This document shows positions 32,159 to 54,068 of a stretch of DNA of 64,000 nt, piece by piece. The notes under the pieces are model-generated. The model was not told the origin of the DNA. It was given only the letters and a program-made list of their open reading frames with translations, and made no database searches. The stretch lies in assembly GCF_040215725.1 (NCBI RefSeq), contig NZ_CP157971.1, forward strand, positions 124,001-188,000, in the 5' to 3' direction. The translations under genes and the position numbers were made by a program. Position 1 is the first letter of the stretch; every line of letters begins with the position of its first letter. Source of the DNA: Rhizobium sp. ZPR4. Lineage in GTDB: Bacteria > Pseudomonadota > Alphaproteobacteria > Rhizobiales > Rhizobiaceae.

Positions 32159-32174
32159 TTGCACTGCAGTATAA
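32159..32174. promoter_or_regulatory. conjugation box 1 (TTGCAC-TGCA-GTATAA)
   Basis: One of five related 16-bp near-palindromes seen only in the transfer region. It lies between the divergent processing operon (ATG 32090) and the thermonuclease-like operon (ATG 32203), 69 and 29 bases away. The plus strand reads TATAAT at 32170-32175, so the box overlaps a probable -10 for the + operon. Confidence 0.65.
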
Positions 32175-32202
32175 TTTTGTGCATCATCCCCAGAGCCAAT
32201 TG

Positions 32203-32895
32203 ATGACGGACGCAAGCATGAATCCTGGCGCACGACGGCTCGCTCAAATCCTTTTTTGCACAATTGCATGCGCGACAAATAGAGTGGCGCTTGCGGGCGA
32301 AGAGGATGCCGTCTCAAGATTTGTCGGGCATTATCAGCAGGCTTATGCGGAAGGGCGCGACCTGATCCCTACCCCCCAAAAGCCCCTGGATACTGCGTCG
32401 ATCGGACCGCTCCACCTGCACACCATCACACCTGAGGGCGCACTGAGCGGAAGCGCGTTCCTCGCCTCCGACGGAACCATCGTCAAATTGGCCGGCGTCC
32501 AAGGTTGCCTCTCGACTGAGCAGATGGAATTCGTCGGCCTGCAGACCACATGCACGATGGTCTCGCTCGCGGGTCTAACCGCTTTGCTCGAGGAGGCTGA
32601 GGCCGCCGCCGGCAACGCTTTTCCGTGCCATTTCCTCGGCCAAAATAACGGCTCGCCCACCGTACGTTTTGCCGAATGCTTCTTCATGAAAAACGGTGAA
32701 ACACAATCGCTGTCAGAAGTGCTCATCAGCAAAGGTGTAGCTTTCGCGGCTCGCGATCGCACCAGCCGGGCAGTGTTTCCGGAATATGCGCAGGCGGAAG
32801 AACGCGCACAGAAAGCGAAAGCCGGAATCTGGGCTAACACCCACTTCGATCATCCCTACGGTGAGCGCTATCGCGCAAATCCCTCCACGGACTGA
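32203..32895 (+). CDS. exported thermonuclease (SNase)-fold protein 1, degenerate
   Basis: 230 aa from ATG 32203 (a second ATG at 32218 is possible). Hydrophobic N-terminus RRLAQILFCTIACATNRVALAG fits a signal peptide. The C-terminal 150 residues follow the staphylococcal-nuclease-like pattern: GTIVKLAGVQGCLS where nucleases have RLxGIDxPE, and LSEVLISKGVAFAARD then AEERAQKAKAGIWA. The catalytic Asp/Glu positions are lost and cysteines (GC, TTC, FPC, AEC) gained. First gene of a six-gene + operon next to the T4SS region; an envelope role in conjugation is inferred. Overlaps the next ATG by one base. Confidence 0.72.
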   Translation: MTDASMNPGARRLAQILFCTIACATNRVALAGEEDAVSRFVGHYQQAYAEGRDLIPTPQKPLDTASIGPLHLHTITPEGALSGSAFLASDGTIVKLAGVQGCLSTEQMEFVGLQTTCTMVSLAGLTALLEEAEAAAGNAFPCHFLGQNNGSPTVRFAECFFMKNGETQSLSEVLISKGVAFAARDRTSRAVFPEYAQAEERAQKAKAGIWANTHFDHPYGERYRANPSTD

Positions 32896-33536
32896 TGAGG
32901 TTCCTGATGTTGATGTCCATTCTAGCAGCTTCCGGCTTCTACGCAGGCATCACCATCATGCCGATGCTGGCCGGCGAGAATCTTTCTGACGCCACCCGTC
33001 ACCCGCCGGCAATCATCCCTGTTAAGGCGATCGAGAGCCAACGCGCCGGGGGCATCCGTGAGAGCGATGGAACCGCATTCGTCCCGTTTCCAGAACAAGC
33101 GCAATTCGAAACTGGTGACACCTGGATTTCCGGTGGACGGCGATATCGTCTCTATGGCCTGCAAGCATGTTTGCGCGGAACCGCCGTCACAATTTCTCCC
33201 GGTGTTGTCAGGGATTGCGGAGAGCTCAACCTGATCATGGTCCAGGCGTTGATTAGAGATATGAAGCCAGTCTGCACGACCATCAAGGATATCGATCAGA
33301 ACAATGCCGTGGTCGGCTGCCAGACGACAACAGGCAAACGGCGCTATGATCTTGCAACTTACATGATTGCGGAGGGGTGGGGATTCGCCGCCGTCGACAC
33401 CTCCGGCCATCTGGTCGTTCCCGGCTACAGGGTAGCGGAAGAAAGCGCACGATCGGCTCGCACCGGCCTTTGGGCCTACTCGGACATGCCTCACCCAGTC
33501 GCAATCCTTGCGGGCCAAGGGAGCGCACAACGATGA
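32895..33536 (+). CDS. exported thermonuclease (SNase)-fold protein 2, degenerate
   Basis: 213 aa. N-terminal membrane/signal segment FLMLMSILAASGFYAGITIM. GRRYRLYGLQACLRGTA replaces the nuclease RLxGIDxPE motif, again without acidic catalytic residues but with a Cys at the same place as in protein 1. The tail keeps the family signature (LATYMIAEGWGFAAVD, then AEESARSARTGLWA). Four further Cys (RDCG, PVC, VGC) may form disulfides in the periplasm. Start codon overlaps the previous stop (TGATG). Confidence 0.72.
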   Translation: MRFLMLMSILAASGFYAGITIMPMLAGENLSDATRHPPAIIPVKAIESQRAGGIRESDGTAFVPFPEQAQFETGDTWISGGRRYRLYGLQACLRGTAVTISPGVVRDCGELNLIMVQALIRDMKPVCTTIKDIDQNNAVVGCQTTTGKRRYDLATYMIAEGWGFAAVDTSGHLVVPGYRVAEESARSARTGLWAYSDMPHPVAILAGQGSAQR

Positions 33537-34156
33537 AACTTGTTTCGCTCTCGATCTTATTTTTGACGATGACAGTGGCGGCACCGAAGGCACAAGTCCG
33601 GCCAGTTGACATCCCGCGCCAGATTTATGGAAAGGTCCAGGTCGTCGATGCGACGACCCTTGAATTCAGGAAGAGCGCGCAGACCGTGCGGCTTGCCGGA
33701 TATGAAGCCCCTCGCCTTGAGCAAACTGCAAAGAGCGATGGCATCGACTGGCCGGCTGGCCAGGTCTCCCGGGCCTGGATGATCCTTCGTACACTTGGCC
33801 AGGACGTCAACTGCGCACCGATTGCTCGGGATGCCAATGGTGTGATCATCGCGCACTGCTTTGTCGGAGAGACAAACCTCGCCGCCACGGCCATCGCAGA
33901 AGGCATCGGCTACGCGTTCAATTACCGCGGTGAACCTCAGGTTCCCGCCTATTTCGATATTGAAAGGAAGGCGCGTGGCCTGGGATACGGCGTCTGGTCA
34001 TCGCCAGATCTCCTTCCTCCGTGGCTCTACACCGCCTCGACGGGTAATGGGGAGAAGGCCAAGGATTCTTCGCTGGAATCTGATAGCGGCTTGCCCCTGC
34101 CGTTACCTGTCGTCCCTGCCAAATCGCCCACCCTCAACGACGTGCATGGAGGTTGA
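33533..34156 (+). CDS. exported thermonuclease (SNase)-fold protein 3, partly degenerate
   Basis: 207 aa from ATG 33533, in ATGA overlap with gene 2. Signal peptide MKLVSLSILFLTMTVAAPKA. Closest of the three to true nucleases: TLEFRKSAQTVRLAGYEAPR keeps RLAG and a Pro, but the expected Asp is Glu-less (YEAPR instead of IDAPE). VNCAPIARDANGVIIAHCFV and LAATAIAEGIGYAFNYRG keep the fold's second half with two Cys. A Ser/Pro-rich C-terminal tail follows. Probably non-catalytic or altered. Confidence 0.75.
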   Translation: MKLVSLSILFLTMTVAAPKAQVRPVDIPRQIYGKVQVVDATTLEFRKSAQTVRLAGYEAPRLEQTAKSDGIDWPAGQVSRAWMILRTLGQDVNCAPIARDANGVIIAHCFVGETNLAATAIAEGIGYAFNYRGEPQVPAYFDIERKARGLGYGVWSSPDLLPPWLYTASTGNGEKAKDSSLESDSGLPLPLPVVPAKSPTLNDVHGG

Positions 34157-34468
34157 ATGAGCCGTATTGTTGCAGCCACTGTGGTGCTCATATTGCTGTC
34201 CGGTTCCGCATCCTCAGCGATCGCCGACGACGGCCCGACCCAGCAGCAAATAAACCAGCGCGATCCGGACTTTTGCGGGGCCGCAGGCGCCGGCTGCGAT
34301 CCCGCCGAGGTGCAGCGTTGGAAAGCTGTCGGCAACAGGCTTGCCGATCTCTCTTCAGCCGATCTCAGTCAGTACGCCTATGGCTGCGCCAAGCATCCCG
34401 ATTGGAGACGAGACTGCGAAACCAATCCAGCCGCTATCCTAAAACGGCTCGGGATCGAGGGATACTAA
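34157..34468 (+). CDS. small exported protein
   Basis: 103 aa, starting one base after the previous stop with GGAGG overlapping it. Signal peptide MSRIVAATVVLILLSGSASSAIA, then a mature part of about 80 residues with four Cys (DFCGAAGAGCD, YGCAKH, RDCET) and a pattern suggesting a helical, disulfide-bonded periplasmic protein. Fourth gene of the thermonuclease-like operon. No family recognised; a T4SS-associated envelope role is inferred from context. Confidence 0.72.
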   Translation: MSRIVAATVVLILLSGSASSAIADDGPTQQQINQRDPDFCGAAGAGCDPAEVQRWKAVGNRLADLSSADLSQYAYGCAKHPDWRRDCETNPAAILKRLGIEGY

Positions 34469-34470
34469 GG

Positions 34471-34848
34471 ATGGCGCTGAGCAAGCCTTCCGGAGGCGCG
34501 GTCTTGGCGGCAGGGTTCGCCTTCCTGGTAGGCGCAAGTGGCGGCTATGCGATCAACGAAATCATCAGGAGCGACCACGAGACCGACCTGGAACACGAGG
34601 TCGCCCGGCTGGAAGACGAAGTGTCACAAAAGGCGAACGCTGACGTCCCGAGTGACGAGGAGGCAAGCGCTGCGCTTGCAAAATCAGGACGGTCGATGCG
34701 CGTTTCGGAATGCAAGCCGCGTCAGGCAGTGCCGGGTGTGACTTGCTCAGGCGTGATCACGACGACCGGTGGATCCTTTGCCGGGACAAACCAACCCGGT
34801 GTGCTCTCCTTTGCAAAAATAGATGGGGTCTGGAGGCAAATCCAATGA
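34471..34848 (+). CDS. membrane-anchored small protein with coiled coil
   Basis: 125 aa from ATG 34471, with the ribosome site in the preceding stop region. An N-terminal anchor (GGAVLAAGFAFLVGASGGYA) is followed by an acidic coiled coil (ETDLEHEVARLEDEVSQKAN) and a C-terminal beta-like region with two Cys (SECKP, VTCSGV). Likely tethered in the inner membrane and facing the periplasm. Overlaps the next gene by ATGA. Not recognised as a named family. Confidence 0.68.
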   Translation: MALSKPSGGAVLAAGFAFLVGASGGYAINEIIRSDHETDLEHEVARLEDEVSQKANADVPSDEEASAALAKSGRSMRVSECKPRQAVPGVTCSGVITTTGGSFAGTNQPGVLSFAKIDGVWRQIQ

Positions 34849-35414
34849 ATATGTCGAAAGAGCGGACAGTGAGACAAAGACTAATATTGGCTGCGATCCT
34901 CACCGGATCGGCCTTTCCGCCATCAGCGGCGACCGTGAGGGCCGAGGATGCGTCGTGGGGATGCCAGGTTCTGCTGTGCGCGGCTTCACAGAATCCGTCC
35001 TGGCACGGCGTTTCCTACTGCGTTCCACCCATGACAAAACTCATCGCGGCGATGAAGGAGCCGGGATTTTCGTGGCCCATTTGCGAAGAAGCCAATGCCG
35101 GCAACCCGGGGCACGAGACTTACGACGACTGCCCGTCAGGCACCACGGTTGGCAGCAGTTCGCAGACTGGCAATGGCTGGAGCAGTGAGCCTGACCAGTG
35201 CATCAAAACCGTTGATGTTTGCCGATCTTCCGGGCAGCGCGCTTCCGACGCCAGCCACAGCAGTGTTGTGACACGGCGAAGCTTCGGCGATCGAGGCGAT
35301 AGCTGCATCCAGCAGATTGCGACGCCGCGGCCGCGCCGTGCAGACCCCTATTACTTCGATATCCCGAACGAACAAGGCGTGAAGCAGAGGTTCTGGTTCA
35401 ACCTAAACCATTAG
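34845..35414 (+). CDS. exported cysteine-rich protein of the conjugation operon
   Basis: 189 aa from ATG 34845 (ATGA overlap). Signal peptide LILAAILTGSAFPPSAATVRA. The mature protein starts WGCQVLLCAASQNPSWHGVSYCVPPMTKL, a block I recall from small proteins near T4SS genes on rhizobial plasmids, and contains seven or more Cys. Ends in a basic/aromatic stretch (YYFDIPNEQGVKQRFWFNLN). Last gene of the operon, converging with the XRE regulator. Function unknown; disulfide-stabilised envelope factor is the best guess. Confidence 0.7.
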   Translation: MNMSKERTVRQRLILAAILTGSAFPPSAATVRAEDASWGCQVLLCAASQNPSWHGVSYCVPPMTKLIAAMKEPGFSWPICEEANAGNPGHETYDDCPSGTTVGSSSQTGNGWSSEPDQCIKTVDVCRSSGQRASDASHSSVVTRRSFGDRGDSCIQQIATPRPRRADPYYFDIPNEQGVKQRFWFNLNH

Positions 35415-35449: not shown

Positions 35450-35791
35450 TTACGTTGTCTCGTCGGTGGTTTTCTTTTTCCCCCGACGGGCTCGCCACGC
35501 GGCGATCCGAGCAAAATCGCTATCCGAGATTCTGAACAAATCTTCAATCGTGACATTCCACTCGCGCTGCATCTTGTCGAGAGTCGAGAGCTTCACATCC
35601 CGCATGCCCCTAGCGACTTGCGACATGTAGGCTTCCGACACGCCAAGTTGGTCGGCCAGGTCCTTGTTCGTCAATCGCCGTTGAGCCTTCAGTCGCATCA
35701 GGCCGATTGCGAGCCGCTCCTGGAAAGAGAGAGACGTCAGGTCAATCACATGCGAAGCTTGATCGGTGCCATCGTCCTTCAACCGCGGCAT
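35450..35791 (-). CDS. XRE-family transcriptional regulator
   Basis: 113 aa. A single lambda-repressor-type HTH: IGLMRLKAQRRLTNKDLADQ and LGVSEAYMSQVARGMRDVKLSTLDKMQREWNV at residues 30-78, with a basic C-terminal tail (WRARRGKKKTT). It stands alone, flanked by the thermonuclease-like operon and the 36-kb genes. On pRleVF39b-like rhizobial plasmids an XRE protein (TrbR) represses transfer, and this gene holds a similar place (recalled, not searched). It is the best candidate to bind the five conjugation boxes. Confidence 0.88.
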   Translation of the reverse strand: MPRLKDDGTDQASHVIDLTSLSFQERLAIGLMRLKAQRRLTNKDLADQLGVSEAYMSQVARGMRDVKLSTLDKMQREWNVTIEDLFRISDSDFARIAAWRARRGKKKTTDETT

Positions 35792-36121
35792 CGAACGACA
35801 CTTTCGCCCGGAGGATCCATCAACGCGCTCGGGCGCAACAGCGGCTGATAACCAGGGGCATGAGCGCCCCGATGGTCACCTGGATGTTTCAAAGTTCTAC
35901 CGCTCATCCGATGCATAGGCTGTCCAGAGATCAAAAAATTAAGCGTTAACGTTCTTATCTTCGTGTTCGACTTCAATACACCGCAGCGGCCAGCCTGTGC
36001 AAGTGAACCCCACGCCTCCCAAAATGGACGGCTCAGTCTCCTTGTAGACCGATCTCTGATTGCTCCAAACTTTAACTGCGGTTAAATTTTTGATCTGTTT
36101 CTATGGATAGGAAAACAACCT
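35792..36121. promoter_or_regulatory. control region between XRE gene and the 36-kb operon
   Basis: 330 bp without a gene. It contains conjugation box 5' of the + genes (36071-36086) and TTAAGCGTTAA near 35940, a short dyad in an AT-rich pocket that may be part of the XRE promoter. No other feature was seen. Confidence 0.5.
36071..36086. promoter_or_regulatory. conjugation box 2 (TTTAAC-TGCG-GTTAAA)
   Basis: The most symmetrical of the five boxes: perfect 6-bp arms around TGCG. It lies 35 bases before the ATG at 36122 and 280 bases from the XRE start. The TATAAT of the other boxes is replaced by TTAAAT. Confidence 0.65.
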
Positions 36122-36415
36122 ATGAGATCCCTTGAACGGCTTGGCTATCGGATCGACCTGCGGCAATTAGGAATGGCGATCCTATTTCTGGCACTCGCAT
36201 TCGTCGCCGCTCGATTGGCTTTTCGAGATAGCCTGACCTTGGGCTACGCGATGGTTATCCCATGCTACATCTTCCTATCCGCCATCACTGAAGGTGCTCG
36301 GTTGGGGAGAAGCAGTTTTTGGGGCATTCGCGGCTGGGCGGAAACGGCCTTCGCGCTCGCTTGCTCCGCGGGCGTTGGCTATCTCGGCTTCAGCCTATGG
36401 TCGATCGGGTACTGA
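36122..36415 (+). CDS. small inner-membrane protein
   Basis: 97 aa, AGGA nine bases before the ATG. Three hydrophobic segments: QLGMAILFLALAFVAARLAF, SLTLGYAMVIPCYIFLSAIT and TAFALACSAGVGYLGFSLWS. It directly follows conjugation box 2 and precedes the 448-residue protein by 9 bp. No family recognised; location suggests a transfer-related membrane factor such as an exclusion or assembly protein (inference). Confidence 0.65.
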   Translation: MRSLERLGYRIDLRQLGMAILFLALAFVAARLAFRDSLTLGYAMVIPCYIFLSAITEGARLGRSSFWGIRGWAETAFALACSAGVGYLGFSLWSIGY

Positions 36416-36424
36416 TAGCTAACG

Positions 36425-37771
36425 ATGCGTATCGTGGTCCGCAACAGCCCGATCCATGTCTTGATGGAACTAAGCGACAGCGAGGCCATCGCGTTGCGTG
36501 CCTGGTACGGCAACGCGGCCTCGAGCGCCGATGAGGCAATTGCGCTTTCAGTTATTCGACGCGTCAAGGTGATGAATGGCTGGATCGAATGTGACTGCCT
36601 GAAGGCACAGCATCAGCCGTTGCTTGCCCCAATCCAACAGGAACACACGTTCACGCTGCGGCGACTGACGCCGAAGGATAATACCTCGGGTCGGCATGAA
36701 GAGCGGCCGAACCACGCCCTCTCCTGCCCGTTCCACGTTGACAAGGACGCCAGCCCCGCCCTCATTGACCGCAGCTATCATCTTCGCCCCCTGCCCAAAT
36801 CCGACCGCTCGTACATCGATGCCCTTCCCGCCATTCCTGATCGCCTGGCCGATGTCTCAGGTCATGAACCCTCCAGATCGAACGAACGAAATGACCGGCC
36901 CTCCAGACTGGGTGGCGTGCTGTGGCGGATGCTTGATAGGGCGGGTACGAACGTGATCCCGCCGCTGCAGGATGAAGTTGATTTCACGCTTACCAACCAG
37001 TTGTCGCGGCTGCGTTCCGCCGCGCGTGAACTGAGGGTGCTCAGGACCTGGACGCTGAACGCGCTACTATCGACTTGGGGCCCCGATTATTGGAATCCGG
37101 AGAGCCGTTGGCAACGGCTGCTAGCGACCTCGCGCCGCGACTGGCCCGAGGGACTTCGCCGCACCGGCTTCATGCTGTTGTTTTCGACCAGCGTTTCCAC
37201 GCAAGCCATCATGCCGGCATCCAGCTCGCGGACAATCGACATCCTCTCCAAGGTGCGCCAGCCGCTTCGGGGCGACCCGGCAAGCCGAGGCCCATTTCTC
37301 ACCCTCCTAAACGTGGATTTTCAGGAAGACGATGAAGGACCGGTTCGCGCTGTGCAGGCCTACGCTCAACCTGTCTACAACGGCGATACGCTCTTCCCCA
37401 TCGAGTCCGGATTTGAGCGTGACGTTTCCCATTTGCTGTTTTGGCTTCAGCAATCGCTCTTCGATGCCGCGCCAGACCTGCGGATCACCATTATCAAGCC
37501 CCTCTTCGCCATGGAAACGCCCATCGGCCCGTGCAGGCCTGACTTCGTCTTGGAAATTGCGAATAGAGATCAGCCACCGCGCAGACTGCTCGTCGAGGCC
37601 CTCGGGATGGAGACCGAGGAATATCGTGACGCCAAGGAAAAAACGATCCCGCGAATGAAACATCTGGGGCCAATCTTTGCTATTTTCCCGGAGGATCTTA
37701 TCGAAAAGAATTCCGAACAGACTGGGCGCCGGCTGCAGGCGTGGGTCGTCGACAAAATAAGCGATCGCTGA
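36425..37771 (+). CDS. two-domain protein: Cys/His cluster plus PD-(D/E)XK-like region
   Basis: 448 aa. N-terminal part has WIECDCLKA near residue 57 and HALSCPFHVD near 97, a possible zinc site like that in DUF1173-type plasmid proteins. The C-terminal third reads GPCRPDFVLEI, then RRLLVEALGMETEEYRDAKE and IPRM. This resembles PD-(D/E)XK nuclease-fold proteins (Pro-Asp, a hydrophobic strand, then Val-Glu-x-x-Gly with Tyr and Lys following). The exact active-site lysine is uncertain. Cotranscribed with the small membrane protein under box 2. Could process or inspect transferred DNA; activity is not established. Confidence 0.6.
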   Translation: MRIVVRNSPIHVLMELSDSEAIALRAWYGNAASSADEAIALSVIRRVKVMNGWIECDCLKAQHQPLLAPIQQEHTFTLRRLTPKDNTSGRHEERPNHALSCPFHVDKDASPALIDRSYHLRPLPKSDRSYIDALPAIPDRLADVSGHEPSRSNERNDRPSRLGGVLWRMLDRAGTNVIPPLQDEVDFTLTNQLSRLRSAARELRVLRTWTLNALLSTWGPDYWNPESRWQRLLATSRRDWPEGLRRTGFMLLFSTSVSTQAIMPASSSRTIDILSKVRQPLRGDPASRGPFLTLLNVDFQEDDEGPVRAVQAYAQPVYNGDTLFPIESGFERDVSHLLFWLQQSLFDAAPDLRITIIKPLFAMETPIGPCRPDFVLEIANRDQPPRRLLVEALGMETEEYRDAKEKTIPRMKHLGPIFAIFPEDLIEKNSEQTGRRLQAWVVDKISDR

Positions 37772-38241: not shown

Positions 38242-41040
38242 TTACGCAAACCGATCTTCGTCGTCGTATTGCGGTCCTTCTTCACTCAGCGGATCGCGAG
38301 CACGATCGGCAAATTCGCGCAGAAATGCTTTCGAGCTATCTTCCGTCAGGCGCTCGCAGAGGGTTCCGATCAGGAGCTCGACATCCGCATTCAGCTCCAT
38401 CGGGTCGAACGAGCCCGCGTCCGCCTGCTCAAAAATTGCATCATTCAGGGCCTTGATGTCCGTCCCGAAGGCGCCGCGAACCTCCTGCCGTCGCAGGATG
38501 CCTGCGGTGGCGGGATTTCCAGCTTCGTTCTGACTATCCGGAGGTCGCTGCACTCGACTGCCTGGTCCTAGTGGCGAGCCCGGATAGCGACTGCGATCCA
38601 ACTTCGCCTGATCTATCCCAGTTTCGAAGTCATCAACTTGGACGGGGGTGGTCGTTCCTGCTGCCCCGCCGTCATCTCCGTGTCCGCCCGGTGCCGCGAT
38701 TTTCTTGTTCCGCACCTGGGTACGCTCGTCATCTCGAAGTTCTTCCTCCCTCCGTCCGGCTTCGCGAGTTTCGTCGAGATCCAGACGCTGACGAAGTTCA
38801 TCGAGCGAAGAAATATAGACGTGTCGGACGCCCTGCTTGACGATGAAGCGAACATTCTGTGGCTGCTGCGGCCTGTTCACGGCAACAAGATCAACGACTC
38901 GACCCGCCGGCAAGCTATTGTCGGTTGCCTGGGATAGAGCGGCTTCAAGCCGCGATGCATCGCGTCTAAAGGCTTCGGTGTCGGCGGTCGTCCATTCGAC
39001 CGGCTGTATGCACGGTTTGGTCACCGGCTTGAACTTCCGCACCTTCGAAAACGTCCGCTCTCCCCCGGAATCGAGTTTCATGATGCGCATGAGCGGCATG
39101 CCGGTAACCTGGAGGATCGCCTCCTCCGGCTTCATCATCATCAGCGTATTGACTGGAAGCAGGTCCACCGACACCGGCACCTTCGAGATGGACCGTTGCC
39201 TGCGACCATGGCGGTGTGAGTAAGAGGATTGCTCGACCCACTCGGTCGTCCTGCCGGCTGCGGCAGAGACGGCGGCTGCGTCCTCCTGGTTCTGGAAGTT
39301 CATGAACAACTTAATCGTGGACGCGCCCATCAGGATCTTCTGCCCGGACCGCTGATACAGTCGTTCGAGCTGCGCGCCATCCTGCAGGATAAAGACGAAG
39401 CGAACGCCGTTCTTCCGGATCAATGGTGCAAGCGTCAGGACAGTATCTATGCGCCCGCCATTCCCGAACTCGTCTAGCATCATCAGCACTTCGTGCTCGC
39501 CGTTGCGCAACGGTCCCATCTGCACGAGCTTGTCGGCCATCTGCTGGATGAACATCGAAATCAGCCGCTCGTAGATCTGCATCGCATTCCAGTCGGCCTG
39601 GACGAAAATCACCAATTTCCGCTTTCTGATCGTGTCGATCGGGATCGTGGTGATAGAGGTCAGCGCTTCCACAAGGGGATTCTGCAGAAAATTGAGCTTG
39701 GCGACGATCTCCGCTGCAATCCCCTCGCCCAGCTTTTCATGTCGACCAGCGAATTTTGTAAGCTGCATGCGGGTCTGATCGGAAAGAACGAGCTCATAAT
39801 TCTCCAGAAGCTGGATGATCGCCTTGCGTTCATCCGACATCGAATTGAGAATGCGGTAGAGCTCGCTGAGCGATTTCCGCGTATCGGGGCACTCCAGCAC
39901 GAAACCCAGCATGGCTGTCAGCAGGATCCTGGCGCTCTCCTCCCAAAAATCCGATGAATCGGAGCGCAGACGCTCCGGCAACAGCATCTGGGTGAGCTTC
40001 TGCAGGTCGGTGATCCGCTGGTTCGGGTCGGCGCTGATGAGGTCGAGTGGGTTATAGCCGTCCGTAAATTTGGAGCCTGGCGCCAGCAGGAAAATCTCGT
40101 AGCCCTGATCCTTCAGATAACCCGACGTCTCCTCAAACAGCTCGCCGCTCATGTCGAGGACCATCTGCGATCCCTTGAAACTCATCATCGTCGGAATGAC
40201 GAAGCCGCGCGACTTGCCCTGTCCCGGGGAGCCGATGACCATCACATGCTGATCGCCGTCGTTGCGCAGAAGTAGACCCTGTTTGAGACCCAGAACGATG
40301 CCGTGCTTATCACGCAACCGGAAATCAGCGGCATCCTTCAGGGTTGCCAGTCTTGCCTTTCCCATGATCATGCGCTGGCGCTTCTGGATTGCTGCCCCGA
40401 TCGGAAACCCAACCGCGACTCCAGCGGCCGCCAGACCGGCGAGCGCGGCGAACACAGTCTGCCGTGGCGGCCGCTGGAGCGTCCCGGCCGCGTCGGTGGC
40501 TCCAAAGGGTGCCTGATACATCGCCGCAAGATGCGCGCCATAATAATTAGCTACTCCGGCCAACCCACCGGCTTTGCTTGCGACGAGATAAAACACAGTT
40601 CCGTAAACTATGACAGCGGCATAGGCAGCAGCGAATATCAGTGCAGTATGCGCAATCAGTGTGAACATCGACCTCACATGCAGGAGGTAGAGGATTTTAC
40701 GCGACAGCGCCCTTCCCGCTTTCAGCATCCAGAGGGTCAGCAGGAAAAAGAGAAACGGCGAAGCGAGAACGAACGCCAGGATTGAGAGCCCGATGGTGTT
40801 CCGCGTGCGAATGATCGACCATGTGTAGGCAATGCCGTCGAGAATAGGCGCCTGCCCGACATAATCGTAATAGGAGGCCGACCCGAAAGATGTGACATAG
40901 CCCTCGTAGATCAGCGTGAAGAACATCAGCCATATCGCCACGGCGCCGAGAACGGCGACCGGGAAGGTGAAGGCCGAGGCCTCCTGGAGCTTCGTCCATT
41001 TGGGGCGTTCAGCCTCTGCGTCCGTGGATACGCTTGCCAT
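38242..41040 (-). CDS. virD4: type IV coupling protein (VirD4/TraG family), long form
   Basis: 932 aa from ATG 41040 (GAGG about nine bases upstream; start lies inside virB11). N-terminal membrane region (VAVLGAVAIWLMFFTLIYEG, further helices to residue 225), Walker A IGSPGQGKSRGF near 270 and Walker B VLMMLDEFGNGGR near 520. Conserved QLERLYQRSG and NFQNQEDAAAVS follow. It recruits the relaxosome and pumps DNA into the T4SS. The usual VirD4 ends soon after 650; here about 250 extra, acidic, poorly conserved residues end in DDEDRFA, perhaps a substrate-recognition extension. Confidence 0.9.
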   Translation of the reverse strand: MASVSTDAEAERPKWTKLQEASAFTFPVAVLGAVAIWLMFFTLIYEGYVTSFGSASYYDYVGQAPILDGIAYTWSIIRTRNTIGLSILAFVLASPFLFFLLTLWMLKAGRALSRKILYLLHVRSMFTLIAHTALIFAAAYAAVIVYGTVFYLVASKAGGLAGVANYYGAHLAAMYQAPFGATDAAGTLQRPPRQTVFAALAGLAAAGVAVGFPIGAAIQKRQRMIMGKARLATLKDAADFRLRDKHGIVLGLKQGLLLRNDGDQHVMVIGSPGQGKSRGFVIPTMMSFKGSQMVLDMSGELFEETSGYLKDQGYEIFLLAPGSKFTDGYNPLDLISADPNQRITDLQKLTQMLLPERLRSDSSDFWEESARILLTAMLGFVLECPDTRKSLSELYRILNSMSDERKAIIQLLENYELVLSDQTRMQLTKFAGRHEKLGEGIAAEIVAKLNFLQNPLVEALTSITTIPIDTIRKRKLVIFVQADWNAMQIYERLISMFIQQMADKLVQMGPLRNGEHEVLMMLDEFGNGGRIDTVLTLAPLIRKNGVRFVFILQDGAQLERLYQRSGQKILMGASTIKLFMNFQNQEDAAAVSAAAGRTTEWVEQSSYSHRHGRRQRSISKVPVSVDLLPVNTLMMMKPEEAILQVTGMPLMRIMKLDSGGERTFSKVRKFKPVTKPCIQPVEWTTADTEAFRRDASRLEAALSQATDNSLPAGRVVDLVAVNRPQQPQNVRFIVKQGVRHVYISSLDELRQRLDLDETREAGRREEELRDDERTQVRNKKIAAPGGHGDDGGAAGTTTPVQVDDFETGIDQAKLDRSRYPGSPLGPGSRVQRPPDSQNEAGNPATAGILRRQEVRGAFGTDIKALNDAIFEQADAGSFDPMELNADVELLIGTLCERLTEDSSKAFLREFADRARDPLSEEGPQYDDEDRFA

Positions 41041-43392: not shown

Positions 43393-43401
43393 CGTGCCTC
43401 C

Positions 43402-44966: not shown

Positions 44967-45021
44967 GTTTCAAACCTCGAATTCGCAATGAGTAAAATCG
45001 GTGATCCTTGCCGCCTCCGCG

Positions 45022-46095: not shown

Positions 46096-46313
46096 GTCTC
46101 ATCCTGGAAATTGTTCACCGGTCGCATAGGACCGCAATCGTCCTTGATGGCGCCCGCGAGCGCATTCTCAGCGACGGTGGTCGTGGGCTCGGATACGAAG
46201 CCGAGGGCCGGGACCGGATTGTCGTCGGCCGAGCATTTGGCAAGCTGCTCATATTTTCCGGCGCATCCGACGAGCACCGCACCGATCAGCCCCAACACAA
46301 GAACTGCCCTCAC
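46071..46313 (-). CDS. VirB7-like small lipoprotein
   Basis: 80 aa with a lipobox LVGCAG at residues 14-19 after MRAVLVLGLIGA. The mature part has two further Cys (LAKCSAD and DDCGPM). Between virB5 and virB6 where VirB7 or an entry-exclusion (EexN-like) lipoprotein normally sits; in either case an outer-membrane lipoprotein. ATGA overlap with the virB5 stop. The VirB7 role is likely; exclusion is the alternative. Confidence 0.75.
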   Translation of the reverse strand: MRAVLVLGLIGAVLVGCAGKYEQLAKCSADDNPVPALGFVSEPTTTVAENALAGAIKDDCGPMRPVNNFQDETWIPSATR

Positions 46314-47101: not shown

Positions 47102-47120
47102 GTGCCTAACCTTTCCTGTG

Positions 47121-48293
47121 CTAATTTGCCGTCGGCCTGGAATCGACCACCGTGACGAGGCCAAGTGCCGGGTCCTGCAATGCCGTGAAGGTCGCGACCG
47201 CGCCATTTGCACGTGCCTCATCCTGCAGGTCGGACAGCCAGTGCTGGATCTGTTCTGTGGTGGCGTTGGACGGGACAGCGAAGCAACGAGTGCCACCTGT
47301 ATCGATGATATTGGTCGGGCACCGGATCTCGGCCATGACAAGCGAGCCGTCATGGTCTTTCGAATTTCCGCCACCACTGCCACGAAGGCTAGCCGACGAG
47401 GATTGCAGGCCGGACTGAAGGCGCTGCAGATATTGCTGGTTCGCTGCGATCGATTTCCCAAGCAGCTCGTTCCAAACGGAGCCGCGTTCGATCTGCGCCT
47501 GCGTGTTTCGGTCGACCGCCTTCTTCAGCTGCTCGCCGCAACCGTTTGCGTAACTCGCGGTTTCTGGCTCGGCTGTACCCTCCGATGGGGTGTTATCACC
47601 GTTCTGGGCCTTGTTACGGGCATAGTAGGCGGAGACCTTTTTGACGTAGTCCTGCGTCTCCGGAATGTTGGGGATCTGACCGTTCTGCAGCGACTGCCGG
47701 TACGGTCCGGCATTGTAGCCGGCGGCGATCAGATCATAGCGGTCACCGAACATGCCCTGGAGCTGCTTGATGTATTTGACGCCGCCCCGAATATTGTCGC
47801 GCGTGTCATAAGGGTTGACGCCGAGCTGTGCGGCGGTGCCTGGCATGAGTTGCATGACGCCGGTGGCACCGACCCCCGAGCGCGCCGACTGGCGGAAACG
47901 CGACTCCTGCTCGGCGATCGCCATCGCAAAATTTGGATCGACACCCTGCCGGATTGCCTCCTGTTGCACCATGCTGGCAACTTCCTGCTGGCTTGGTGTC
48001 CGGGATGATGGCGCTGCGGGCGCAGTGTCTCCCCCTATGCCATCGGCTGAGCAATCCGTCGGCGCGCCCGAACCCTGACCAGGTGCGACGCTGTCGGTCG
48101 CTCCGCCCGAGGCGCCTTTGACTTTGCGCGTATCGGCCTGATAGGACTGATACCAGTTCTCGGTCGCCTGCTGGATCTTCTGGCGCGCCTGGTCGATGAC
48201 CGGCACCTGGGCATGACCTGTGCCAACGGGAAAGAGCAGCGCCAAGGCCAACACGCCGGCCGCGGCTCCCTCAAGGTGCTTTGCGTGCTTCAT
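47121..48293 (-). CDS. lytic transglycosylase of the T4SS operon (second, large)
   Basis: 390 aa. Signal peptide AAAGVLALALLFPVGTGHA. The SLT domain (about residues 100-215) has MAIAEQESRFRQSARSGVGATGVMQLMPGT with the catalytic Glu, and IAAGYNAGPYRQ. A C-terminal region of about 150 residues with Cys (NGCGE, EIRCP, TRCFAV) is not part of the usual VirB1 and resembles a fused secreted module. It cuts peptidoglycan to let the channel through. Overlaps virB4 by 23 bp; a second SLT gene heads the operon, so the system has two. Confidence 0.9.
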   Translation of the reverse strand: MKHAKHLEGAAAGVLALALLFPVGTGHAQVPVIDQARQKIQQATENWYQSYQADTRKVKGASGGATDSVAPGQGSGAPTDCSADGIGGDTAPAAPSSRTPSQQEVASMVQQEAIRQGVDPNFAMAIAEQESRFRQSARSGVGATGVMQLMPGTAAQLGVNPYDTRDNIRGGVKYIKQLQGMFGDRYDLIAAGYNAGPYRQSLQNGQIPNIPETQDYVKKVSAYYARNKAQNGDNTPSEGTAEPETASYANGCGEQLKKAVDRNTQAQIERGSVWNELLGKSIAANQQYLQRLQSGLQSSSASLRGSGGGNSKDHDGSLVMAEIRCPTNIIDTGGTRCFAVPSNATTEQIQHWLSDLQDEARANGAVATFTALQDPALGLVTVVDSRPTAN

Positions 48294-50790
48294 CGACCGT
48301 CACCCCATCCCAGTCGCAGAATTTCGAGAGCCAGTTCTTTGGATCGTCGCCGTACTCGTCGAGCAACATCTCGACTTCGCGCACGGTCTCTTCCCTCCCC
48401 GAGAGCACCTTGATGAACTCTGGCATGTGGGACATGTCGACGCGAGCGATCACGCTGCTCTTTGCCTGCTTGATCAGCATGAAGCGCGAACTCGGATCAC
48501 CGTTTTTGACCCAATCGAATTCCGCTCGCGAGAGACCGAAATGCTCCATGTAGGAGTTTTCGTCAGCCTTGGGATTGGCAAAGAAGATGTTGGTCGACGT
48601 CTGTTCGATGATCGTGCGGCTGACGCTCGAACGCACCACGTCGTCGGCCGACTGCGTGCCGAAGATGACGAGACCGTTTCGCTTTCGGATCGTCTTGAAA
48701 TAGTCCTTCATGGTACGCTTGAACTCGTCGTCATCGAGCAGCTTCCAGGCTTCGTCCATCAGGTTGATGATCGGCGCCTTGCCGTCGTAGATCGCATCCA
48801 GTCGGTGGAACATGTAGAGAAGGGCTGCGGTGCGTACGGTCGGATCATCAAGGATCGACGTCATGTCGAAGCCGATCATTGGCCGCGAGATATCGAGATC
48901 GTCGGCCGCGTTGTCGAAGAGCCAGGCGTAGGGTCCCTTGTCGACCCATTTGTCGAGCCGGGCGATCAGGCTGCCTTCGGTCCGCTCACTGCCGGCAAGC
49001 AGCGCCCGCAGTGACGAAAGACGGCGATAAGACCTGTCCTTCGTCTTCAGGACTGACTTGATCGCGTTGCGAATGATCGCTTCTTCCTGCGGCGTCAGGC
49101 TTTCGCCTTCCTTGGAAGGTTTCAGCATGAAGCTCAGGAGCCCATAGAGGAAAACGCGGTTCTCCTCGGTGTCATCAAGCAGTAGCGGGTTCCATCCCGA
49201 CGGCTGGCCGGGCTCCAGCGACATGTAGGTTCCGCCCGCTGCCCGCACCATGATGTCGAGGCCACGGTCCTTGTCGAAGACGATCGTCTTCAGCCGCGGG
49301 CTGACGCGATAGGCTTGCAGGATCAGGAAGGCCATGATGACGGTCTTGCCGGATCCGGTCGGGCCGAAAACTGTCGTGTGCCCGACGTCGCCCTGATGGA
49401 AGTTGAAGAAGAAGGGCGTGCCGGACGTCGTCTCAAAGATTGTGATTGCCGGCCCCCAATGGTTGCCGTCAGGCTTGCCGTAAGGATAGGCGTGAAAGCT
49501 GCTCAAACCCGAGCAGTTCAGCGTGGAGATCAGCGCTCGCCGGGCGATATAGGCCTGATTGCCGGGCAGTTGCGCCCAGTAGGCCGGCTCCGCATTCAGG
49601 TCTTCGCGGACATAGGAAGCGCCGAGCGCGCCGAGTTCGTTGCCGATCAGCGCCACGGCATCGTCAAGCTGGGCGATGGCTTTGGCGACCGGCATCACCG
49701 TGAGATGATGTTCGGTGAAGGCAACCCGCTTGCGGGCAAGTTCGTCCCGGGCAATATCGAGATTGGCCTGGACACTCGAGCCACCTTCGTCGGCCTTTGA
49801 CATCTGCCGGTCCAGTCGTTCGATCCGGCTGCGGGCCGCCATGTCGTCGACAAAGGACATCGATTGCGTCAGCACCAACTCGAATGGCAGCTTGAGGATA
49901 TAATCAAGCATGCCGGCGCCCGTCTCCGGTGGATATTCCTTCAAGGAGACCATCGCCGCATAGCGGTCATCGCCCGGTATGTCGCCTTGCAGGTGAATGA
50001 TGCGGTTGCCGATCGATGTCCGGCGGGCCGGTAGCATCTCGTCGATCGGAATGTTGCCCAGCCGGATCGGCCGAACGCGTCCACCGTTCAGTAGCGTATA
50101 AAAGAACTCGCATTGCTCGGAGAACCAAATTTTCCGCGCGGCTTCGTCGACGACCATATCTTCAGAGACATCGCGGAAGACTTTTCTGTTCTCGCCGAGG
50201 TCAGCTTGGACGCGTTGCACGTCGCGAAGGACCTTCGGCCCATAAACGGAAAGCGATTTCTCAAGTGCTCGCGTTGCCTCGTTGAGTTTATCGCGCATCG
50301 CGCGGAACTGTTCCTTGCGCACGATCGTGCCGCCAGCACCCATGAGGCGGGACAGCGCCGATCCCTTTCGGAACATGGGGCGCACGACCAGCGAGACATA
50401 AGTGTCGTTCACGAACATCTCGTTTTTCGAGATGCTCGACTGATAGACGTGATCGAGGCGCTCCATAAAGGGATCGGCGAAGGCTGACGGCAACGACGGC
50501 GCAACCTTGCGTCTGATCACGTGAGTATAAAGTGCGAAGCTGCCGATCGAGGAGATCGCACGGAAGGCGGCATTGCGCTGCCGCTGCAGCATATTGATCG
50601 TTTCGATATCCGCCGTCTCGAAGGAAAAGCCGGTGAGCTTCAGGGTTGAGACGAGGCAGTCGTTCTTCAGGCGGATGATGCCGTTTTCGATCGGGACGTA
50701 GAAAGGAACATGCGTCGCCACATTGCGGTCTGCAAAGATCTCCCAACCCTTTGACAGACTGCCTCTCAGCGATCTCGCCATCGTGTTCAT
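48271..50790 (-). CDS. virB4: T4SS ATPase VirB4
   Basis: 839 aa, family length. N-terminal CagE/TrbE domain (ENGIIRLKNDCLVSTLKLTG, ETGAGMLDYILKLP), Walker A VFGPTGSGKTVIM near 478, Walker B INLMDEAWKLLDD near 676 and the GTQSADDVV arginine/sensor region near 715. The largest energy protein of the apparatus, acting at the inner membrane in pilin handling and transfer. A second possible start, MARSLRG, lies three codons in. Follows virB3 by 3 bp. Confidence 0.96.
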   Translation of the reverse strand: MNTMARSLRGSLSKGWEIFADRNVATHVPFYVPIENGIIRLKNDCLVSTLKLTGFSFETADIETINMLQRQRNAAFRAISSIGSFALYTHVIRRKVAPSLPSAFADPFMERLDHVYQSSISKNEMFVNDTYVSLVVRPMFRKGSALSRLMGAGGTIVRKEQFRAMRDKLNEATRALEKSLSVYGPKVLRDVQRVQADLGENRKVFRDVSEDMVVDEAARKIWFSEQCEFFYTLLNGGRVRPIRLGNIPIDEMLPARRTSIGNRIIHLQGDIPGDDRYAAMVSLKEYPPETGAGMLDYILKLPFELVLTQSMSFVDDMAARSRIERLDRQMSKADEGGSSVQANLDIARDELARKRVAFTEHHLTVMPVAKAIAQLDDAVALIGNELGALGASYVREDLNAEPAYWAQLPGNQAYIARRALISTLNCSGLSSFHAYPYGKPDGNHWGPAITIFETTSGTPFFFNFHQGDVGHTTVFGPTGSGKTVIMAFLILQAYRVSPRLKTIVFDKDRGLDIMVRAAGGTYMSLEPGQPSGWNPLLLDDTEENRVFLYGLLSFMLKPSKEGESLTPQEEAIIRNAIKSVLKTKDRSYRRLSSLRALLAGSERTEGSLIARLDKWVDKGPYAWLFDNAADDLDISRPMIGFDMTSILDDPTVRTAALLYMFHRLDAIYDGKAPIINLMDEAWKLLDDDEFKRTMKDYFKTIRKRNGLVIFGTQSADDVVRSSVSRTIIEQTSTNIFFANPKADENSYMEHFGLSRAEFDWVKNGDPSSRFMLIKQAKSSVIARVDMSHMPEFIKVLSGREETVREVEMLLDEYGDDPKNWLSKFCDWDGVTVDEARKAP

Positions 50791-50793
50791 CGC

Positions 50794-51120
50794 TTACACT
50801 CCGTAGGTTCTGACGCCGCCACCGAGCTTCCGGCCAAGAGGGTTGACACCACACATGCTGAGGCGCCCGACGATCTCGAAAAACCAGAGATCGAGCTTGA
50901 CGGTGAGCACGTAGAGAATGCTGTGGAGGACGACGAAGGAGACCGGGAACCACAGGATGGATCCCAGGATCATGAAGACCATTAGCGAAACAAAACATTC
51001 CGCCAGGAAGTAAGTGTACGGAATTCCCATCACCGTCGGCGGTCGTGTGAGAGCCAATATGACGGGATGGGATTCGATATAGTCGTCGCCACCCTCGGCG
51101 GTATTCCCTGCTCCCGCCAT
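50794..51120 (-). CDS. virB3: T4SS inner-membrane protein VirB3
   Basis: 108 aa. SHPVILALTRPPTVMGIPYT near residue 17 and two tightly spaced membrane segments (FLAECFVSLMVFMILGSILW, FPVSFVVLHSILYVLTVKLD), then WFFEIVGRLSMCGVNP, the VirB3/TrbD/AvhB3 pattern. Partners VirB4 in pilus assembly; the genes are three bases apart, and in some systems fused. Confidence 0.93.
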   Translation of the reverse strand: MAGAGNTAEGGDDYIESHPVILALTRPPTVMGIPYTYFLAECFVSLMVFMILGSILWFPVSFVVLHSILYVLTVKLDLWFFEIVGRLSMCGVNPLGRKLGGGVRTYGV

Positions 51121-51123
51121 GGC

Positions 51124-51495
51124 CTAAGACCCGCTGCCAGCAAGGAAGTCGACGAGCTCGGCGGCGGCAAACATGCCGGCAAGGCTTCCTCCAACCCGAA
51201 GCAGCGCTCCCCAGGACCAGTAGCCAAAGGCTGCGGCGAGAAACATGCCGATGAAGGCAATCGCTCCGACCGAACGACCGAACGGCCCGGTGAAGAACTG
51301 CACAAGTCGGTCAGCCGCGTTTTGAAGGGCATCGAGATTCTGCGCGGCCGCTGGCTCGTACTGGCTGACGAGCAGGATCAGGCTCGTCGCAAGCACGATG
51401 GCGGCGTTCCCGACCCACCTCCTTTTGGCCAATGAGGACCAGGCTACGCTGCCATAGAGAACGGCGCTCTGGACTGCGAACGCGATGGGATTCAT
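51124..51495 (-). CDS. virB2: T4SS major pilin VirB2 (TrbC family)
   Basis: 123 aa. Long signal sequence ending in PAAAQ, then the prepilin with two hydrophobic segments (GRSVGAIAFIGMFLAAAFGY and RVGGSLAGMFAAAELVDFLA). Length and layout match TrbC/VirB2. Processed by signal peptidase and assembled into the conjugative pilus. ATGA overlap with the upstream transglycosylase gene's stop; virB3 follows after 3 bp. Confidence 0.92.
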   Translation of the reverse strand: MNPIAFAVQSAVLYGSVAWSSLAKRRWVGNAAIVLATSLILLVSQYEPAAAQNLDALQNAADRLVQFFTGPFGRSVGAIAFIGMFLAAAFGYWSWGALLRVGGSLAGMFAAAELVDFLAGSGS

Positions 51496-52607
51496 TCAAA
51501 CACCTCTTCCTTGACAATTTTGACCGGCTCACCTGGATCATTCCGAGCCCCCTGAGCTCGGATTTCTGGTGGGGCCGAAGTCACTGCTGAGAAAACAAGC
51601 ATCGGGGATTTTGCGCGGTCGGCCCGGCCGGTACGGCGGGACGCCGAGGCCGTACTTGTGGACGTGACACCCGGCGCGGCCGCCGTGCCGGTATAGTATC
51701 CAACGACACGGGTGACATAGTCCGCGGTCTCGCGGATCAGTGGCAGGGAATGGCGAAGGTCGACATGCGGCTCGCCGGCATTATAAGCGGCGGCGACCAA
51801 CACAGGATTTTTGTACTTGGCGATCAAGACGCGGAGAAACCGCGTGCCAGCCTGGATGTTCTGCTCCGGATCCGATAGATCGGTCGCACCGAAGGCTTGG
51901 CCGATGCGTGGCATGACTTGCATCAAACCGATGGCGCCCGCGGAGCTAACCAGATCTGGATCGAACCCGGCATTCTCGGCCCGCATGACCGAAAGCACCC
52001 AGTTGGGATCCACCTCCTCCTTCCGGGCAACCTTCAAAGCAAGTTTGGCATAGTCCGTGGGCACACCGGATAAAAGATCCGATCGGACCTGTACTGGTGG
52101 CTCGCTGACATGAGGTGTGATTGTCGGCTCGGCAAGTTCCGGAACGGCGGTTGCATGGTCAAACGAGTAGACGCTGACCAGCGAATGCACATCGCGCTCC
52201 CGACGGTCATTCGTGCTGCCAAAGGCTGATTCTGATGATCGCCCGACGCTGTCACTAAACCCTCCGATGAACTCCGGCGGACCAGCGCTGATCCGAAGCG
52301 CGTCAACGACCGGGCCGCTAAATCGCGCGTTGAAGCTGGCAGAATCGATCGTTGGGATATCCCGCGTCAAAGTAGCAGCTGAGGCCTCCGGATTTGTCGG
52401 CACGGCCGCCACCTCGCTGGCCTTCGGCTCCGCCAGGCTGGCGGTGTGGACGTGCGTCGACTTTGCCAAGACGATGTGGCCGCTACTGTCATCTGGGCCG
52501 GAGGCGAAACCGGTAAGCAGAAAAGCCGAGGTTCCGGCGAGCCATAGCACGCTCCACGAGGATATCTTGGGCGGTCTGTTCACAGGCGAAAGCGGATCGC
52601 TATCCAT
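51492..52607 (-). CDS. virB1: VirB1-type lytic transglycosylase heading the virB operon
   Basis: 371 aa. An N-terminal membrane segment (SVLWLAGTSAFLLTGFASG) followed by about 170 poorly conserved residues, then an SLT domain: VDPNWVLSVMRAENAGFDPD with the catalytic Glu, SSAGAIGLMQVMPRIG and VLVAAAYNAGEPHV. Ser/Thr/Pro-rich tail. It opens the peptidoglycan for the T4SS. The first gene of the transfer operon: box 3 overlaps its presumed -10, with the start only 19 bp further on and no clear ribosome site, so a very short leader or a different internal start is possible. Confidence 0.9.
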   Translation of the reverse strand: MDSDPLSPVNRPPKISSWSVLWLAGTSAFLLTGFASGPDDSSGHIVLAKSTHVHTASLAEPKASEVAAVPTNPEASAATLTRDIPTIDSASFNARFSGPVVDALRISAGPPEFIGGFSDSVGRSSESAFGSTNDRRERDVHSLVSVYSFDHATAVPELAEPTITPHVSEPPVQVRSDLLSGVPTDYAKLALKVARKEEVDPNWVLSVMRAENAGFDPDLVSSAGAIGLMQVMPRIGQAFGATDLSDPEQNIQAGTRFLRVLIAKYKNPVLVAAAYNAGEPHVDLRHSLPLIRETADYVTRVVGYYTGTAAAPGVTSTSTASASRRTGRADRAKSPMLVFSAVTSAPPEIRAQGARNDPGEPVKIVKEEVFE

Positions 52608-52625: not shown

Positions 52626-52641
52626 TTATACTGCGGTATAA
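52626..52641. promoter_or_regulatory. conjugation box 3 (TTATAC-TGCG-GTATAA)
   Basis: Perfect 6-bp arms around TGCG. Minus strand reads TATAAT at 52630-52625, a consensus -10 for the virB operon whose first ATG is at 52607. The box therefore overlaps the -10 and could be bound by a repressor. Confidence 0.72.
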
Positions 52642-52681
52642 GATTTTGAACCGCATTCAGCCGTGGAAATCAACCCTAAAG

Positions 52682-52697
52682 TTTAACTGGAGTATAA
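52682..52697. promoter_or_regulatory. conjugation box 4 (TTTAAC-TGGA-GTATAA)
   Basis: One mismatch between arms. Its centre is 56 bp from that of box 3, so two boxes lie in the virB upstream region, roughly five helical turns apart. The TATAAT on the plus strand points towards no gene on that strand. Confidence 0.6.
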
Positions 52698-52744: not shown

Positions 52745-53200
52745 TCAATCCCTTAGTCTTGACCATTGATCCGGGGTCCAGCGATACCGAAGCTGTTCGC
52801 GATCTCCCAAAATGCGAGCTAGACGGACGGCAGTCCCGCCCTTTACCAGGACCGAACCGGCGTTGGCACCCGATGCACGGACAGAGATTCGGCACACGAA
52901 ATTAGGCAACTCCGTCTGTATTCTCGTCACCTGATAGCAGGACTCGATCTGGTAGCGGCCGCCATCACGACCCATCGATAAGTTGCTGTCTTGGACGGGA
53001 CCAAGCCGCTGGCGTCCGAATTCGGTGCCATACTCCAGCTGGCATTCGGCGATGTTTTCCCGATAGGCTTTGCAAGCTGCGAGGCTAAGATACGCGAACG
53101 GTACTGGCGGCTGTGGTCGGCCGCGCTCGACCTGATGACCACATCCTGCCAGCGCCAACATTGCTGCCAGAGATCCGAAGAGCTTCGCAAAAGTCCGCAT
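52745..53200 (-). CDS. lipoprotein, probable transfer-region envelope protein
   Basis: 151 aa. Signal peptide and lipobox MRTFAKLFGSLAAMLALAGCGH (Cys at 20). The mature part has CKAYRENIAECQLEY, ESCYQVTRIQTELPNFVCRI and a C-terminal beta-like region ending RYRWTPDQWSRLRD. AAGGTAG precedes the ATG. 11 bp after the upstream gene, so a two-gene minus operon upstream of virB1, possibly under box 5. Not recognised beyond being a lipoprotein. Confidence 0.68.
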   Translation of the reverse strand: MRTFAKLFGSLAAMLALAGCGHQVERGRPQPPVPFAYLSLAACKAYRENIAECQLEYGTEFGRQRLGPVQDSNLSMGRDGGRYQIESCYQVTRIQTELPNFVCRISVRASGANAGSVLVKGGTAVRLARILGDREQLRYRWTPDQWSRLRD

Positions 53201-53211
53201 GGTGCTACCTT

Positions 53212-53946
53212 CTATCTTGCCTGCCGATAGCCGGCCTGTTCCAGGGCTTCGAGGAAAAGATCACGGGCGAGCGCGCAATAGGGTGACGTTGCCTGAGCCA
53301 GGTGAAGCTGGGTGAGCACCAGTCCGAGATCGGAAACGGTCGTCACGACGTCCTTGAGGTCGCTGTTGAACCCGTCCCGCAACACCTCGCCGCTCGCGTG
53401 GCCTTTGACTTCGATCGCGTAGTCGTTGCGCGCGATGCTGTGCCAAAGCTCGATCGTGCCGGTTTCGCCCACCGCGCTTTCCGTGTCGCAGACGAGGAGG
53501 AGGGCGTAATCCGGATCGCGCATCGCGCTTTCCTCTATAGAGGTGTCCCCACGGAATTCCGTCAGCACCACCTCAGTGGCAAAGAGCATCAAGCGCTCGT
53601 TCACCAGGAGGCGCTTCTGGCCAAGCCGGACAAAGCCGTTCATGACAACGGAGCGGATTGCTGCGGGCGGAAGGTTTTCCGCGCAGTGTTCGCATATCGA
53701 TGTCAGTTGGCTATCGAGAAAGGCAAAGGTGCTGTGGAAGCGGTTGACGATGGATCGCTCAACATGTTCTGTTTGGCCGCCCAAGGCTTCGACGAAAGCG
53801 AACGCATCAAGTGTTTTGCGAGGCTTCGCGAGTACATCGCTCTCCGATGCGGAGCCCGGGTCCCCGACCAGGCTCGAAGGGCCAACGACGATAGCGGCAG
53901 ACCGCGTCTGTGCACCACAGCCCGGGCAGTCCGCTGAGAATGGCAC
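53212..53946 (-). CDS. hypothetical protein with N-terminal Cys pairs
   Basis: 244 aa beginning at GTG 53946 (AAGGA about 11 bases upstream). Two Cys pairs, ADCPGCGAQ at residue 7 and SICEHCAENL near 84, could make a zinc site. The rest is mixed alpha/beta (GQKRLLVNERLMLFATEVVL, then DPDYALLLVCDTESAVG, TVSDLGLVLTQLHLAQATSP). Cytoplasmic. First gene of the small minus-strand operon with the lipoprotein, about 107 bp from box 5. No family recognised. Confidence 0.6.
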   Translation of the reverse strand: MPFSADCPGCGAQTRSAAIVVGPSSLVGDPGSASESDVLAKPRKTLDAFAFVEALGGQTEHVERSIVNRFHSTFAFLDSQLTSICEHCAENLPPAAIRSVVMNGFVRLGQKRLLVNERLMLFATEVVLTEFRGDTSIEESAMRDPDYALLLVCDTESAVGETGTIELWHSIARNDYAIEVKGHASGEVLRDGFNSDLKDVVTTVSDLGLVLTQLHLAQATSPYCALARDLFLEALEQAGYRQAR

Positions 53947-54052
53947 TTTGTACCATTCCTTCGTCAGGAGGGATCGATTGTGTATCAGGGCAAACCCGCT
54001 TTCCGATTGAACGGCTTATTGCTCGACCGATCATATTGACGGACCGAAAAAC

Positions 54053-54068
54053 TTACACTGCAGTATAA
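54053..54068. promoter_or_regulatory. conjugation box 5 (TTACAC-TGCA-GTATAA)
   Basis: One mismatch between arms; plus strand reads TATAAT at 54064-54069. It lies 107 bp upstream of the minus-strand gene starting at 53946 and also faces the gene-free region to the right. Confidence 0.6.

Follow-up and report, generated by a model that had tools for sequence, protein, structure and literature searches.

Conjugation systems of rhizobia fall into four groups (PMC13274422). In the type IVa system of plasmid pRleVF39b, the protein TrbR has been described as a repressor (PMC8628070), mutation of trbR increases transfer of the plasmid (PMC7449395), and the gene is placed between the DNA transfer and replication (Dtr) and the mating pair formation (Mpf) genes (PMC9601222); the passages on TrbR in these three papers describe the gene and its effect and name no target sites. 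A literature search by TrbR repressor and binding-site terms and by the letters of the boxes described below, with two primary papers lying outside it, returned no published TrbR operator. Transfer operons of large rhizobial plasmids are likewise controlled by RctA/RctB (type II) and TraR (type I) (PMC8628070, PMC9601222). Here we analysed a stretch of 64,000 nucleotides from Rhizobium sp. ZPR4 (contig NZ_CP157971.1, positions 124,001 to 188,000; hereafter the window, whose own numbering is used), in which five copies of a 16-bp palindrome, boxes A to E, lie among transfer genes. With a probability that we put at roughly 0.84, the palindrome is the operator (the 'TrbR box') of an XRE-type repressor encoded in the same region, by which the operons of a type IVa-like conjugation system would be jointly repressed.

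The gene for this XRE protein is located between the relaxase/ParA genes and the virB/coupling-protein genes, a likeness to the type IVa system of pRleVF39b, and its product is probably the ortholog of TrbR of that plasmid. The combination that marks a type IVa system, a VirB-type Mpf with a coupling protein and a MOBP-type relaxase, is present in the window: domains of VirB10, VirB11, the coupling protein and a transglycosylase were recognized in the virB operon, and the relaxase domain PF03432 scored above its cut-off, with the MobP1 model on the window relaxase below its own (38.2 vs 200 bits). Typing of the Mpf and relaxase of 15 relatives gave MPF_T in all 15 and MOBP in 11. A repressor that coordinates transfer operons via palindromic sites is also known from the IncP TrbA/KorA systems, but both the box sequence and the operons differ from those of the window, and the XRE protein matched the TrbA model weakly (24.2 bits, below the NCBIfam cut-off of 96). 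RctA/RctB and TraR are different regulators from the XRE protein. Its XRE domain resembles QseC and the C proteins of restriction-modification systems (9xz9_A, E 2e-05; C.BclI, 2b5a_A, E 4.9e-07), which act mainly on their own locus, whereas the boxes of the window are spread across 22 kb of transfer genes.

All five palindromes reported in a sequence-only reading of this DNA were found letter for letter at their positions, and every one falls in a gap between genes. When the window was scanned with TTNNACTGNNGTNNAA at zero mismatches, boxes A to E were matched and nothing else; at up to one mismatch there were 11 strand-hits, 10 of them at the boxes, against a mean of 1.68 in shuffled windows, and at least 11 were reached by none of 100 shuffles. 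With a scoring matrix built from 61 sites, five of them from the window itself and 56 from other plasmids, the boxes scored 25.7, 25.3, 23.8, 21.0 and 17.6 and the next-best 16-mer of the window 5.6, in agreement with that reading, which had noticed no further copy of the motif in the window. Equal-scoring matches elsewhere, which it had proposed to look for, were thus missing from the window, and in the 7.74-Mb genome, searched by pattern, only chance-like exact matches appeared: TTNNACTGNNGTNNAA occurred exactly at four further places, all on contig C1 and all having arms that contain G or C, and on the window's contig outside the window there was no further exact match. The pattern TTATACNNNNGTNNAA gave 10 strand-hits in the whole genome, five at boxes A to E and five elsewhere, and its reversed control gave seven. 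From the window scan and these whole-genome counts we conclude that the motif is genuine and, within the reach of the patterns tested, restricted to the transfer region.

Relatives of the XRE protein are present in 53 plasmid records, of which 19 were examined (L010 to L027 and L083); 15 of these loci (L010 to L024, from Rhizobium, Neorhizobium and Agrobacterium) share the region, with boxes in the unannotated L022 placed by position. In the 612,633 bases of the 15 loci we counted 60 exact-frame matches, compared with 3.3 expected from 20 first-order resamplings, and 56 of the 60 lay in the same five gaps, the other four being set aside by position; not every plasmid has all five boxes. Box A was found in the equivalent gap of 14 of the 15 loci, box B in 10 and box D in 12 (of which two and three, respectively, keep only seven of the eight fixed bases), box C in 13 and box E in 12; boxes C and E of L014 lie outside the stretch examined and were found elsewhere in the same record. 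Column identity inside and outside the box was 0.96/0.66, 0.91/0.52, 0.97/0.71, 0.87/0.69 and 0.91/0.48 for boxes A to E in turn, clearest in contrast at boxes B and E, in alignments of 11 to 16 rows; since only rows with a box had been picked, the inside value is biased upwards. The distance between boxes C and D in the window recurs in 10 other loci and is 54 bp in L020. Across 18 whole plasmid records (10.35 Mb), the boxes were nearly exclusive to these gaps, which held 72 of the 77 strand-hits of TTATACNNNNGTNNAA, with six hits for the reversed-pattern control. Plasmid pRLG203 of strain WSM2304 (L012), which we take to be a relative of pRleVF39b, carries the same genes and all five boxes, and its XRE protein is 68.5% identical. 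Related plasmids had been named as the place where absence of the boxes would tell against the proposal of a conjugation regulon; the boxes stand there at equivalent positions, which supports that proposal.

A search of genome contigs with a TrbR alignment yielded 39 loci, in 34 of which a box with all eight fixed bases lies 2.8 to 3.7 kb from trbR, as box A does; such a box was absent at that distance from L067, L073, L074, L075 and L076. The samples seem to overlap: judged by their length, L042, L054, L059 and L067 are probably the same contigs as G194, G029, G377 and G045. In L067 and L073, with 53% identical proteins, the top three matrix matches (7.9 to 15.8) are found where boxes E, C and A would be expected: 5' of the 53.9-kb gene, 5' of virB1 and at the box A distance. 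In the more distant L078 (38 to 39%), one of the four best matches stands before the thermonuclease-like genes, another before two reading frames ending with a relative of the 36-kb gene, and two elsewhere. As a family survey, the looser pattern TTNNACYGCRGTNNAA was rejected as too unspecific, with matches in 132 of 394 genomes. The pattern TTATACTGCRGTNNAA matched nine of the 394: G000, G029, G194 and G045 also have a trbR match, and G006, G078, G093 and G309 have unmatched arms and no trbR match. Among the nine genomes with a trbR match, the pattern is absent from five, namely G140, G377 and the weak matches G015, G188 and G266. The ninth genome with TTATACTGCRGTNNAA is G337 (L084:9734-10018), which has no trbR match and in which a fully symmetric box adjoins 55 residues sharing 80% identity with the 53.9-kb gene; because of this adjoining gene remnant, and because the same 20 kb yielded no other transfer protein among those tested, the box looks like a relic.

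We also compared the DNA-reading part of the XRE protein with the boxes. Pfam matches were obtained to HTH_26 (27.7, cut-off 22) and HTH_3 (26.5, cut-off 23), and the predicted structure, from 17 sequences, was all-helical with a mean predicted local distance difference test (pLDDT) value of 73.3 and helices at residues 42-49 and 53-60, the latter modelled as the recognition helix of a helix-turn-helix. Residues 52, 54 and 58 presumably correspond to the DNA-contact positions of 434-type repressors. The TrbR helix that comes after the residues LGV is of three kinds: most relatives have S or T as its first residue, a group drawn from Agrobacterium, Rhizobium, Neorhizobium and Ciceribacter has H or D there, and in L025 and L067 (E type) its sequence is TEGYMSE. 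At box A, an S/T helix was accompanied by TTATAC in 39 of 39 rows (L070 and L024, the same record, being both among them), an H/D helix by TTGTAC in 10 of 10, and that of L025 by TTCCAC; these counts leave out L023, L067, L073 and L074, which have no gap box at threshold. The first half, on the virB strand, is of TTG type in all three H-type plasmids and in none of 13 others at box C, and in three of three and none of 11 at box D, with L083 read as H type; in two S-type plasmids (L012 and L023), TTG occurs in the second half of box D. The pattern TTCYACNNNNGTRGAA, of TTCYAC type, was found at four places in the 71.9-kb E-type plasmid L025, all between annotated genes, once on the trbR contig of the E-type genome G045, and once in 16 other records. 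Linkage and this co-variation of recognition helix and box favour the XRE protein as the putative binder, as the sequence-only reading had suggested. The features of the region are listed in Table 1.

Table 1. Boxes and genes of the transfer region of the window
Feature	Position	Strand	Sequence or content	Place or proposed role	Basis of assignment
Box A	32159..32174		TTGCACTGCAGTATAA	gap of the divergent relaxase (-) and thermonuclease-like (+) operons
Box B	36071..36086		TTTAACTGCGGTTAAA	35 bp 5' of the 36122 gene (+)
Box C	52626..52641		TTATACTGCGGTATAA	5' of virB1
Box D	52682..52697		TTTAACTGGAGTATAA	5' of virB1; 56 bp from box C
Box E	54053..54068		TTACACTGCAGTATAA	5' of the 53.9-kb operon (-)
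Relaxase operon	28131..32090	-	small hypothetical protein, ParA-like ATPase, two small proteins, relaxase	putative target of box A	domains and relatives' annotation
Thermonuclease-like operon	32203..35414	+	six genes in relative L010	putative target of box A	relatives' annotation
XRE/Cro-C1 type regulator	35450..35791	-	probable TrbR ortholog	probable binder of the boxes
36-kb genes	36122..37771	+	two conserved genes, function unknown	putative target of box B
virB operon	38242..52607	-	includes the coupling-protein gene	putative target of boxes C and D	other genes from relatives' annotation
53.9-kb operon	52745..53946	-	two conserved genes of unknown function	putative target of box E

Within the thermonuclease-like operon, an SNase domain was recognized at 33533-34156. 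Between boxes C and D (52642-52681), relatives largely conserve two further blocks of the virB strand, GTTGATTTC and GTTCAAA. Beyond box E lie degenerate direct repeats of 21 to 31 nt, spaced about 200 nt (54481-54776), and a 31-nt inverted repeat, 97% complementary, with arms 84 nt apart (55022-55167), followed by a second, 17-nt pair at 55264-55331. In the TrbR-type plasmid L083 (28578-30059), genes annotated as acyl-homoserine-lactone synthase and autoinducer-binding protein adjoin the transfer region, and in a 20.5-kb plasmid (L027:9947-10297) a 64% identical TrbR relative is encoded directly 3' of a traA relaxase gene.

The sequence-only reading had taken the TATAAT of four boxes as a -10 element. 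The hexamer is indeed present in four boxes: the + strand carries it at 32159, 52682 and 54053, the - strand at 52626. Two of these make doubtful -10 elements, however, because the hexamers at 52682 and 54053 face away from the - strand operons, where the coding strand reads TTATACT. No -35 element was seen at one common distance from all five boxes, and the general claim was therefore not adopted. A promoter-like match, CTGACA-17-AATTAT, overlaps box D on the - (virB) strand, and in 12 of 15 rows the relaxase strand has TTG[AG]CT starting 24 to 26 nt ahead of box A; because of these two elements, we propose that the bound protein would block initiation. TrbR would bind as a dimer with one subunit per half-site (e.g., TTATAC) and would overlap or abut the core promoter of each of five units (relaxase, thermonuclease-like, 36-kb genes, virB and 53.9-kb operon), so that DNA processing, the mating channel and the accessory genes would be held off together. 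If repression were lost in a rare cell, on entry into a recipient without TrbR or by a release signal, the five units would be switched on together.

Two other accounts of the bound protein bear on this step. Another plasmid protein may bind the boxes with TrbR only linked to them, for instance the weakly ribbon-helix-helix (RHH)-like accessory protein at 30524-30928, which is encoded in the same region and gave a sub-threshold RHH_7 match (E 0.025, 15.4 bits vs a cut-off of 27); accessory relaxosome proteins often repress their own promoters. RHH operators, however, usually have shorter half-sites, and the changes in the boxes follow the TrbR recognition helix, which makes this account improbable. 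Slightly less credible still is that the boxes are activator sites at which the bound protein switches the operons on: the position of the boxes relative to promoters is not firmly established, which leaves room for activation, but box D overlaps a promoter-like -10 element and the effect of the trbR mutation on pRleVF39b (PMC7449395) is a rise in transfer.

A chromosomal global regulator such as PhaR/AniA, with the core YGCRNYGCR, was considered as well and is very unlikely. Box A holds TGCACTGCA, a match to the PhaR core as published in PMC12542648, and one PhaR-like site in the table of that paper, marked NE in the binding column, equals CTATACTGCACTGCAGTATAA. The core is absent, however, from boxes B, C, D and E, and box A itself is without it in some relatives (e.g., L021 and L019), and PhaR was set aside as the binder; the sites of a global regulator would also be expected elsewhere in the genome, where the pattern searches showed only chance-like matches. 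Least credible of all is that the palindrome is no operator and only a promoter element common to the operons: four boxes embed TATAAT or TATACT, but conservation extends over both arms and the 16-bp frame, a different TrbR type goes along with different arms, and the missing common -35 speaks against it too.

Several observations weigh against TrbR as the general repressor at these boxes. Boxes B, D and E are missing from five, three and three of the 15 stretches, L026 and L075 have no box within the stretch examined, and neither has the 20.5-kb plasmid of L027. No match to TTATACNNNNGTNNAA was found in the whole records of L019, which has boxes of TTG type, L026 and L027. In L074 (49%), the best matrix match lies in no equivalent gap. 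The only consensus promoter returned by promoter scans was at box D, with 31900-36200 containing none. The matrix scan gave no sign of an autoregulatory box: near trbR, box B was the only strong match, and in H-type loci there was none upstream of trbR. H-type boxes C and D are weaker, with 6 to 8 of 8 fixed bases. As for the E type, only the thermonuclease gap is equivalent among the four TTCYAC places of L025, a plasmid in which exact-frame boxes are lacking both 5' of virB1 and 5' of the 53.9-kb gene, and G045 also carries one TTATACTGCAGTAGAA. On a TrbR tree built by a quick method (24 of 48 inner branches open; L075, a short reading frame, left out), the H/D switch is one change and the box switch is one change. 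The co-variation is thus parallel change at several sites within few lineages and not many independent events, and since helix and box each change once on the tree, it admits no sign test and independence is beyond its reach.

Autoregulation of trbR is not claimed. Box B lies about 280 bp upstream of the XRE gene in the window and was placed 293 to 394 bp upstream of trbR in the matrix scan, and besides it only weaker matrix matches (8.8 to 15.4) occur, at about -157 to -263 of trbR in L024, L066 and L068 to L072 only.

With a defined TrbR box, the regulon would be predictable from sequence in related plasmids, the controlled operons could be named, including those with genes of unknown function, and the release signal would become accessible to promoter fusions. 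Changes of specificity in plasmid repressors could be studied on the matched helix and box classes, which would form a natural series. It is also conceivable, though rather doubtful at present, that TrbR and its boxes form 'immunity groups' of transfer as phage repressors do (S/T with TTATAC, H/D with TTG(T/C)AC and E with TTCYAC), in which case the TrbR of a resident plasmid would silence transfer genes only on plasmids of the same class, whether these are arriving or already share the cell. If so, the class would decide whether a newcomer plasmid is transiently derepressed and spreads onward, and the orphan TrbR of L027 could act on the boxes of a resident plasmid.

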